Shown here: in pieces, positions 60,426 to 63,384 of the stretch
Numbering within the stretch: the first letter of the stretch is position 1
How the letters are laid out: every line of letters starts with the position of its first letter
Assembly: GCF_028649655.1 (NCBI RefSeq)
Contig: NZ_JAQSLN010000005.1
Span: forward strand, 63,409-127,408
Reading direction: 5' to 3'
From: Halobacteriovorax sp. GB3
GTDB lineage: Bacteria; Bdellovibrionota; Bacteriovoracia; Bacteriovoracales; Bacteriovoracaceae
Length of the DNA stretch: 64,000 bases
Program-made: the position numbers and the translations under genes
The notes under the pieces: generated by a model
What the model saw: only the letters and a program-made list of their open reading frames with translations
Database searches by the model: none
Told to the model about the DNA's origin: nothing

Positions 60426-61187
60426 CTACTTAACGGCATTCTTTTTTTCTAGAATTTTCAAAATTGAATTTTGAATCGAATCTTTATACTCAGGTCTACA
60501 CCATAATAGATTTCCATCTATTTTCTTCTCAATACCTAAAGTAATTTCTTCACTTCCTTGATAGAGCGAAATACCTCTTTCTTTACATATTAGTGTGCCC
60601 GCTTTGATATCCCAGATATTTTTAGGTGTTCTCGAATACACAAAATCGCAAGCTCCAGCAGCGAGAAGCCCTAGTTTAAAAGCAATACTCCCCCTTGGAA
60701 GTATTTCGATATCATCAACTTGATCAATAAGGTATTTACCGCGACTGTGCTCTGAACGAGAAACTAATCCAACTAGTTTACTCATAGCTAATGGATTCGC
60801 TTGCTTTGATTGCTGGATGTCATCAGAAGCTATTTCAAAACCCGTAAATGGATTATAAATCCAACCCCACTCACTATCATGCGAATGTATCGAAAGCGAG
60901 ATCGCGCACTCGCCTATTCCCTTTGCCAACTCACGCGTTCCATCTATCGGATCGACGATCATGCAGGGATAGACTAAAGACTTCTGATCTTCTTCACTAA
61001 AAAAGTTAAGGCCCGCTTCTTTTGCAACTTCGTGCAAGAGATCAGATATATAAAGATCAACTTCGGTAACGAGTGAACGGTCCTCTTTTTCAAATTTTTT
61101 GAAATTTCTTTGTGTCCAATCGATTTCGCCGATTTTCTTTTGTACTTTTGTTTTGATTTCCTCTATGACACTCTGATCCAATCTCAT
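60426..61187 (-). CDS. Inositol monophosphatase family protein (IMPase/CysQ-like)
   Basis: The chain (253 aa from the ATG at 61187) has the metal-binding motifs of the Li-sensitive phosphatase family: SLVTEVD, FSEED (Glu), DPIDGTRELAKG and WDIKAGT. It may dephosphorylate inositol phosphate, 3'-phosphoadenosine phosphate or a sugar phosphate. A GTG at 61196 is rejected because GACGGAG would leave no spacing for it, while it is well placed for the ATG. Confidence 0.88.
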   Translation of the reverse strand: MRLDQSVIEEIKTKVQKKIGEIDWTQRNFKKFEKEDRSLVTEVDLYISDLLHEVAKEAGLNFFSEEDQKSLVYPCMIVDPIDGTRELAKGIGECAISLSIHSHDSEWGWIYNPFTGFEIASDDIQQSKQANPLAMSKLVGLVSRSEHSRGKYLIDQVDDIEILPRGSIAFKLGLLAAGACDFVYSRTPKNIWDIKAGTLICKERGISLYQGSEEITLGIEKKIDGNLLWCRPEYKDSIQNSILKILEKKNAVK

Positions 61188-61221
61188 TTTACCCACTCCG
61201 TCATCAACAAAACTTAATTAT

Positions 61222-61302
61222 TTCGTTCACTTTTTTTGCGAAAAGATGCTTTTTTCTGTTGACTCAAGTATTTTATCCACAAAATTTGCCAAGTTATTCA
61301 CA
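61222..61302 (+). repeat. Direct-repeat unit 1 with paired DnaA boxes
   Basis: This copy begins TTCGTTCAC, then TTTTTTTGCGA at 61231. It ends in the pair TTATCCACA (61273) and TTATTCACA (61294). The last 30 bp are identical to unit 2 at 24 of 30 positions by hand alignment. Confidence 0.55.
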
Positions 61303-61381
61303 ATCCGGTGTAAAAACGTCACCTTTTTGACCCCGCTTTTGTCAAGTATAAAAACCCTACTATTTCAGGAGCTTAGCACGC

Positions 61382-61454
61382 CTCGTTATTTTTTTTTGCG
61401 ACTCGCCAAATTTTAGCAAAAAGCTTTTCAACAAAATCACCAAAGTTATTCACA
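61382..61454 (+). repeat. Direct-repeat unit 2 with DnaA box
   Basis: This copy begins CTCGTTATT, then TTTTTTTGCGA at 61391. It ends in TTTTCAACA (61425) and TTATTCACA (61446), keeping the 21-bp periodicity of unit 1 with a shorter middle segment. Confidence 0.55.
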
Positions 61455-61608
61455 TTCGAGCCTCTTGTTAACACAAAAAATCACAATTCCTTACAGCTAA
61501 CACAACCCCAATAGAACCTAACAAAAGCTTAACAATGATTTTGAGAGTAAGAGACTTCAACCACACATAGTGCGTGGTTCGCAAGATCTAGACTTCTTTA
61601 CGACAAAA

Positions 61609-61827
61609 CTATTCTTCTGTCGTGAGCACTTCCACATCCCCATGCATGGCCATTGAATACGCTGTTAAGTTTTCATCTTCATCATAGAAAACATTCGTCA
61701 GAAGCCTAACTTCAGCGCTCTCAGGGTCTACAAAAACAAAAGGGGGTGTGACAATTTCAGACTTACCAAGTTGAAATTCGTGGCAGAAATCATCATAGAG
61801 AGATTTTGTTATATTTGACTTAAACAG
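61609..61827 (-). CDS. Small hypothetical protein with CTG start
   Basis: A 72-codon open frame on the minus strand starts at CTG (61827) with AAAAGGAG five bases ahead. It ends in TAG at 61609. No ATG, GTG or TTG lies between the preceding in-frame stop (TGA at the Shine-Dalgarno sequence) and position 20. The product begins FKSNITKSLYDDFCHEFQLG and continues with a segment containing PPFVFVDPESAEVRLL, then acidic DEDEN and EVLTTEE. Residue use looks like real protein. It lies just after the polytopic membrane protein gene. No family is recognised. Confidence 0.5.
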   Translation of the reverse strand: MFKSNITKSLYDDFCHEFQLGKSEIVTPPFVFVDPESAEVRLLTNVFYDEDENLTAYSMAMHGDVEVLTTEE

Positions 61828-61881
61828 AGGAACTCCTTTTCAACTGCTTGTCACATATATAATTCTACCACGTTTTGTGAT

Positions 61882-63384
61882 TTAGGAATTAAAAATCCTT
61901 AAAATAATTTTTATCCTTCCTTCAAGGTGTGAATCTAAAAGGCAGATTAAGATATAAACAACGTAAATCATGTTACGAGACGATCTCAATCGGCTGATTG
62001 ATTGAAATAAGTACTCAAGTGGCAAAACACTTAAGAGCGCTAGTGGCCACATAAGTCCAAAGGCCTTGAGGTTATCTGTTTCAAAGAAGATGGCGAGAAC
62101 ACTTATGGCCATAAGTGAGATTAATAGCTCATTTAACTTATCGTCACTGAGTTTAAAATCTCTAAGACTTGTTACTTTATGGGGAAGAAACTTATAGGCC
62201 GAAATCAAAAAAACGGATAGGAGAGAGAGCGTAAAAAAAGCTTTTCTCTCTAGAATCGTCCAAAAATCGTTCAAACTGAATCCGAAGTTATAAATCTCAG
62301 AGAGATTTAAATGAGACATAAAGACGACCAGTGCCGAAAGAATGACGCCAAATGAGCTGTATTTAAGCATTTGTCGTCTATACCAGAAGGTCTTATTTGA
62401 CGAGAGCATATAGAAGGTAGCAAAGACCTGAAATGCAGTCAGAACAATATTCATTGGATTAATTAGTATTCCATAAAAGTTCACGAGACCAACAAATAAA
62501 CCTGATCGATATGTTGATGATTTCGTTGACCACATCAAAGACCAAATCCAAAGCAATGTAAAAGTTGAGTCGAGAGCTAATCCAAAATCAGCAGCTAGAA
62601 TCTTTGTAACTGACCACGAAGAAATAATGGCAAATGTACCGAGTAGCGAAAGTCTTCTCGATACGAAATATCTCAACAGTGAGTAGAATGTAAAAAGAAA
62701 CATTCCAAAGAAAGAGAAGTAAAAATGCATCGACCAAGCGACTTTGAATAACTCAGGATATTTTTTAAAAGGGAAGTAGTTAACTGTTAAAAAATTCCAT
62801 AAAAGGGGAGAGATGGTTTCACTTGGATCAAAGAAAAGTTTCAGTGCACTTATATTATTAAGCTCTGTTAATTCTGGAATCGAAATGATGACCATAACAA
62901 AAGTTAATGAAAGTAGCGTTTTTTCAAATCTATCTAAATAGCGAAACTCATTAAAGTTGGAGCTGACCGACTCTTGAATAATCTTTCCTCTAGTAGGCCA
63001 TGAATAAAATAATCCAAGCACTGCCCAGGTCACCCAGAATGTATTGTTAATCCATTTATCAGGAAGCAAGCTTATTGTATTGAAATAGAGAATGATAAAG
63101 AACATTCCAAGATAGATTCTATAGATGATCCTATCTAGACTCGAATTTACCTTAAAGAAGATCTTTAACCTGTGGTCAATCTCTTTACCTAAGAGAAACC
63201 ACTGAGAGGTCATAAACATAATATAAAAGAGCATGACCAAACATTGAGCAAGTGGGCTCAAGTCCAAACTCTTTTGTGTCCAAACTGGAAAGAGAAGAAA
63301 TATAGAATATGTAAGTGCTCGATATAAAAAGAACTTTGCTTTTTTTAACCAAATACTTGAGTTATCATCTAAAGTTTTCACCAT
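61882..63384 (-). CDS. Polytopic membrane protein of unknown function
   Basis: The 500-residue protein has about eleven or twelve predicted membrane segments separated by short loops and no soluble domain. The pattern is loosely like GT-C glycosyltransferases or O-antigen-type membrane enzymes, but none of their motifs is clear. The start ATG at 63384 has no Shine-Dalgarno sequence. It is flanked by the small CTG-start ORF downstream and by the divergent small-RNA and fliD region upstream. Confidence 0.8.
   Translation of the reverse strand: MVKTLDDNSSIWLKKAKFFLYRALTYSIFLLFPVWTQKSLDLSPLAQCLVMLFYIMFMTSQWFLLGKEIDHRLKIFFKVNSSLDRIIYRIYLGMFFIILYFNTISLLPDKWINNTFWVTWAVLGLFYSWPTRGKIIQESVSSNFNEFRYLDRFEKTLLSLTFVMVIISIPELTELNNISALKLFFDPSETISPLLWNFLTVNYFPFKKYPELFKVAWSMHFYFSFFGMFLFTFYSLLRYFVSRRLSLLGTFAIISSWSVTKILAADFGLALDSTFTLLWIWSLMWSTKSSTYRSGLFVGLVNFYGILINPMNIVLTAFQVFATFYMLSSNKTFWYRRQMLKYSSFGVILSALVVFMSHLNLSEIYNFGFSLNDFWTILERKAFFTLSLLSVFLISAYKFLPHKVTSLRDFKLSDDKLNELLISLMAISVLAIFFETDNLKAFGLMWPLALLSVLPLEYLFQSISRLRSSRNMIYVVYILICLLDSHLEGRIKIILRIFNS

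Follow-up and report, generated by a model that had tools for sequence, protein, structure and literature searches.

An intergenic element of Halobacteriovorax sp. GB3 carries two pairs of DnaA boxes, all on one strand, with an IHF-like motif between the pairs, and the arrangement recurs in the same non-coding slot across the family. Judged by this anatomy, the element is fairly probably a stand-alone, non-coding DnaA-control locus of the datA type, one that inactivates or titrates DnaA after initiation. It probably resembles the Escherichia coli 'off switch' datA and helps to stop the chromosome from starting replication twice. A narrower proposal seems to us plausible and is held more tentatively: that the class Bacteriovoracia (Bdellovibrionota) has evolved, or has retained, a locus at which DnaA is inactivated in an IHF-dependent way, as at datA.

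In E. coli, datA requires an IHF site between boxes 2 and 3, and its essential boxes all point in one direction. The intervals between boxes and IHF site are optimised; looping by IHF joins the DnaA at box 2 to the DnaA at box 3 (PMC5742627). Both the spacing of the datA sites and the distance from datA to oriC are conserved in E. coli (PMC4585315). The open-access work on datA and DARS that we found deals with E. coli and related gamma-proteobacteria; sites elsewhere may be described. According to a review, no regulator of replication initiation has been identified in Bdellovibrio (PMC11318664).

If the narrower proposal is correct, the element gives these predators their first known regulator of initiation, and the design of datA must either be ancient or have evolved twice. 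A box-IHF-box locus of nearly the same dimensions in another phylum is a direct test of the generality of that design. It also offers a handle on the control of initiation in predators that replicate only inside their prey or at its expense.

Results

DnaA boxes in the window

The window, the whole stretch of 64,000 nucleotides that was analysed, is C5:63409-127408 of a 3.62-Mb genome assembled in 9 contigs. An earlier, sequence-only reading had reported three consensus DnaA boxes on one strand within 182 bp, together with a fourth near-match that shares a 21-bp pairing. All four were located (Table 1), and the distance of 21 bp between boxes 3 and 4 mirrors that between boxes 1 and 2. The three consensus boxes are genuine and far exceed chance expectation: by our own arithmetic from the density of boxes in the genome, three on the same strand in 182 bp are expected well under 0.01 times per genome. 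Nowhere else on the 351-kb contig C5 do two or more exact boxes cluster within 300 bp. Boxes as such are not enriched, the genome having 137 matches to TTATNCACA and 117 to the reversed pattern. Upstream of box 1, the columns of the TTGAC motif are conserved at T.81, T.88, G.73, A.73 and C.73 in 30 loci anchored at that box.

Table 1. The element and its neighbours, in window coordinates
Feature	Position	Strand	Remarks
Left neighbour, inositol-monophosphatase family	60426..61196	-	Pfam PF00459 4.8e-20
Whole element: TTGAC - box pair - IHF-like site - box pair	61259..61454	+
TTGACT motif	61259..61264	+	14 bp before box 1; column conservation
DnaA box 1, TTATCCACA	61273..61281	+	exact consensus
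DnaA box 2, AG-TTATTCACA	61294..61302	+	21 bp after box 1
IHF-like site, TTTCAGGAGCTTA	61363..61375	+	8/9 of WATCARNNNNTTR
Degenerate DnaA box 3, TTTTCAACA	61425..61433	+	21 bp before box 4, 152 bp after box 1
DnaA box 4, AG-TTATTCACA	61446..61454	+	152 bp after box 2; near-invariant in relatives
Right neighbour, conserved ORF of ~72 codons, probable CTG start	61609..61827	-	tblastn matches, e.g. 61% in G001
500-aa predicted membrane protein, syntenic right anchor	61882..63384	-	no Pfam or NCBIfam match

Two other points in that reading fared less well. It had set each box pair within a longer imperfect repeat containing TTTTTTTGCGA. The copies, at 61231-61241 and 61391-61401, lie 42 and 34 bp before the box pairs and so are out of register, and the repeat is absent even from a relative of the same genus; we therefore regard it as incidental. 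The region had also been called gene-free, which is true of about 61197-61608, where it meets the conserved right-hand ORF. This ORF has no ATG, GTG or TTG start and was missed by an ORF listing built on those codons; it has a Shine-Dalgarno-like AAAAGGAG and homologues in many relatives.

Conservation among relatives

When the intergenic region served as a DNA query, other genera gave short matches, several of which stop at the box pair. A scan of 129 family genomes for the pair pattern TTATNCACA-N12-TTATNCACA, with at most one mismatch, found it in 90, with few matches to the reversed pattern; the reversed control was almost empty once AG had been added to the pair pattern. Because these 90 include chance matches and matches to gyrB coding sequence, a syntenic count is the better measure. 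The coding matches are easily mistaken for sites. In several relatives, TTATCNACAACNGTnnnnGAGTTATCCACA pair matches near dnaA are, by our reading, gyrB sequence encoding VDNSVTVVDN, on the opposite strand, and were discarded as false positives (for example, G119:C5:133101-133130 and G092:C10:110246-110275). This GyrB peptide yields two DnaA-box-like 9-mers 21 bp apart on the opposite strand and can mislead scans for boxes.

Flanking sequence was retrieved for 38 candidate sites in relatives, and 80 named loci, with 64 usable slots, were found by way of the FliS-like protein; these two sets overlap in genomes and are not independent. At a threshold score of at least 16/18 on both strands, 51 of the 64 syntenic slots (45 kb) contain a box pair, against 2 matches in the remaining 2.18 Mb of the same loci. 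About five of the 13 slots that lack the pair no longer contain any intergenic DNA. The site is strongly conserved, in the same non-coding slot, across the family (Bacteriovorax/Halobacteriovorax relatives). The sequence-only reading had proposed conservation of the 21-bp spacing as a check, and the same-strand pair kept in these slots bears it out. Among the pair matches inspected outside the family, some were dnaA-dnaN origins and others were scattered; none lay in this gene slot.

In aligned loci the conserved boxes share one orientation. Boxes 2 and 4, each with AG in front, are nearly invariant (box 2 as AGTTATCCACA). Box 3 is often degenerate, in many genera, and is a better match in some relatives: TTATCCACA in G041 and GTATCCACA in genus g3. 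One genus-level clade, g24 (Bacteriovorax stolpii-like, 17 loci inspected), has a reduced version of the element. The first pair is kept, mostly as TTATCCACA/TTTTCCACA; in most loci a degenerate AGTTTTCCCCA follows ~140 bp further on, with a terminator-like hairpin between it and the pair. In this clade TTGAC often precedes the distal degenerate box as well, and neither there nor upstream of box 1 does it belong to a recognisable promoter.

Inner geometry and the IHF-like site

The first half of the aligned element reads TTGAC, 9 bp, TTATCCACA, AAAnnnnnnnAG, TTATCCACA, ~60 bp and the IHF-like site; the second half continues with ~49 bp, the degenerate box, n10 AG and TTATTCACA. Boxes 2 and 4 are a median of 152 bp apart, and in 26 of the 29 loci where box 4 matches well the distance falls between 147 and 154 bp. 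Base composition predicts 29% identity; the spacers of different genera share 33%, which is essentially random. The length of the spacer is thus kept where its sequence is not, and fixed spacing in random-sequence DNA amounts to a natural mutagenesis experiment on DnaA/IHF geometry.

What lies at the centre of this spacer? In the window, the IHF-like site is centred 75 bp downstream of the first base of box 2 and 77 bp upstream of that of box 4. It was identified with the E. coli IHF consensus, WATCARNNNNTTR, and is a consensus match, not a footprint. Across loci, placing the consensus at a constant -62 from box 3 gives a score of 6.52/9, compared with 5.13 at the next-best position (z 6.25); none of 500 permutations by genus-wise circular shifts reached this value. 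Several loci with slightly altered spacing have a good IHF match shifted by one or two bases. By this scoring, a conserved IHF-like motif sits midway between the box pairs. The genome encodes four HU/IHF-family proteins: the IHF-alpha gene is above the NCBIfam curated cut-off, and one gene has IHF-beta as its best match, below the cut-off.

Position relative to the origin

A replication origin or secondary origin was among the functions first suggested for the region. AT-rich, gene-poor DNA with box pairs would suit an origin, as would a local change of skew near 62 kb of the window, although this flip coincides with a change in gene strand and the skew is negative again further on. On contig C5, to which the skew analysis applies, the cumulative minimum is at about 235-240 kb, at rpmH, dnaA, dnaN, recF and gyrB; the element is at 124.7 kb. 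The window lacks dnaA, as had been noted, yet the gene is on the same contig, 113.7 kb from the element. There, the dnaA-dnaN gap (G000:C5:237229-237855) holds a dense cluster of ~11 near-consensus boxes on both strands and is likely to be oriC. The interval between dnaA and dnaN is also the published oriC prediction for Halobacteriovorax marinus SJ (PMC5124646). The origin of Bdellovibrio bacteriovorus, in the same phylum-level group and with the similar box consensus NN(A/T)TCCACA, is likewise a dnaA-dnaN origin (Makowski et al. 2016, PMC5124646), whereas the element lies elsewhere. We give almost no credence to an origin at the element. The sequence-only reading was to be refuted by a skew minimum and depth peak elsewhere together with boxes unconserved among relatives; we found a skew minimum elsewhere on the contig, but conserved boxes.

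The element keeps to one part of the chromosome. In the 14 genomes where one contig carries both dnaA and the element, the two lie 48-188 kb apart (median 101 kb, ~1-5% of the genome), with the element on the dnaN-gyrB side in every genome measured. Its position near oriC could reflect general synteny.

Gene neighbourhood

In placeable loci, the left side holds FtsJ, a penicillin-binding-like protein, signal peptidase and a MutS2-like gene, with a sigma-54-activator-like gene and the inositol phosphatase present or absent according to the locus. The small ORF, the 500-aa membrane protein, a FliD-like gene and a FliS-like gene make up the right side. Could the element be a DnaA/IHF-controlled promoter of the leftward operon (inositol phosphatase/sigma-54 activator/FtsJ/PBP/signal peptidase)? 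In the window and in most relatives it does lie 70-250 bp upstream of a gene that reads away from it. In G022, G017 and G150, however, the left-hand place is taken by an endonuclease-III-like gene that is read from the opposite strand. Here the element sits between two convergent 3' ends, with no gene starting at it, and therefore it is not simply a promoter. Which gene adjoins the element varies from genus to genus, and several relatives that keep the element have other genes in place of the inositol-monophosphatase-family gene. The recognised left gene lies anywhere from 72 to 3012 bp away, whereas the inner spacing is nearly fixed. No sigma-70-like promoter was found in 61150-61900. We consider control of the leftward operon quite improbable as the function of the element, and a promoter role unlikely as a general explanation.

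Discussion

The datA branch of the sequence-only reading is the one favoured by the same-strand boxes, the IHF-like site between them, the near-origin position and the conservation. Scored in the same way as the element, datA of E. coli K-12 has TTATCCACA at 4392744 and TTATTCACA at 4392906 on the same strand, with a 9/9 match to the IHF consensus at 4392809-4392821 on the other strand, +65 from the first box. The E. coli layout, box-71-IHF-91-box (162 bp), compares with box-75-IHF-77-box (152 bp) in the element. Both are non-coding clusters away from oriC, in the origin-proximal part of the chromosome, and in both, same-strand TTATCCACA and TTATTCACA boxes flank a single IHF consensus match, at intervals that are fixed in the element. 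The IHF that such a site calls for is encoded, with the IHF-beta match below the cut-off. The DnaA of this genome keeps equivalents of R281, R285, L290 and R334, residues named for datA action that are conserved in most DnaAs.

There are differences as well. Each flanking box in E. coli datA is single, whereas the element has a 21-bp pair; the third essential box of datA is the low-affinity box 7, and in the element a further box lies 21 bp upstream of each main box. The IHF match is on the other strand in datA and on the plus strand in the element. The distance from oriC is about 10% of the genome for datA and about 3% for the element. The two loci belong to different phyla and share no neighbours: datA is flanked by glyVXY/queG, the element by inositol phosphatase or FtsJ on one side and fliD on the other. 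Since the neighbours differ completely, the likeness is one of design rather than demonstrated homology.

A DnaA-reactivating site of the DARS type had been suggested alongside datA. DARS1 and DARS2 of E. coli are, like the element, non-coding DnaA-box clusters away from oriC, and DARS2 also uses IHF. In DARS cores, however, box I is inverted relative to boxes II and III (PMC5742627), and the element's conserved boxes all point the same way. We judge a DARS-type site to be very improbable.

The same anatomy would also serve a pure DnaA titration site or architectural anchor, in which DnaA and IHF form a complex without stimulated ATP hydrolysis; sequence does not separate this from a site that promotes hydrolysis. 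Titration has been argued for E. coli (PMC12371093). In Bacillus subtilis and Streptomyces coelicolor, clusters of chromosomal boxes outside oriC, comparable to the element in that respect, have been called analogous to datA and repress untimely initiation (PMC5742627). An IHF-centred fixed geometry like that of the element is not among the descriptions of these clusters that we found. Four boxes titrate little by number alone, and the strict geometry around the IHF-like site suggests a specific complex over a sink. We think pure titration or anchoring rather unlikely.

How might a datA-type element act? The observed boxes, spacing, motif, conservation and position, with the genes for IHF and DnaA, suggest a scheme for protein binding, looping, ATP hydrolysis and timing. 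DnaA would bind head-to-tail on the two same-orientation box pairs, the 21 bp within a pair corresponding to two helical turns. IHF, binding midway, would bend the DNA sharply, so that both DnaA groups meet in a single complex. Reasoning from datA, we would expect such a complex to stimulate the hydrolysis of ATP bound to DnaA, or at the very least to sequester the protein. Placed on the dnaN-gyrB side of oriC, ~100 kb (~3% of the genome) away, the locus would double soon after initiation and so would damp re-initiation. If this is true, doubled boxes and a near-fixed 152-bp geometry mark the datA-like locus of the Bacteriovoracia.

Further observations concern DnaA and its boxes in this phylum. 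The genome encodes a second DnaA-like protein of 387 aa (L002:988-2151, minus strand, corresponding to about 768.3-769.5 kb of G000:C3). It has the ATPase (PF00308) and DNA-binding (PF08299) domains without the sensor-2 arginine motif, reading VYGLES for VRELEG, and could be a DnaA or an Hda-like regulator; several other genera of the family have open frames of 388-405 aa that contain the same domain. In other families of the phylum, 21-bp box pairs recur beside an HTH gene (RodZ-like by eye), a permease gene (YjgP/LptF-like) or both (L246, L249, L253 and L257), and are possibly another lineage's conserved DnaA site. In two further families (L247 and L254), 21-bp pairs adjoin an electron-transfer-flavoprotein-like gene in both cases, possibly a third such site.
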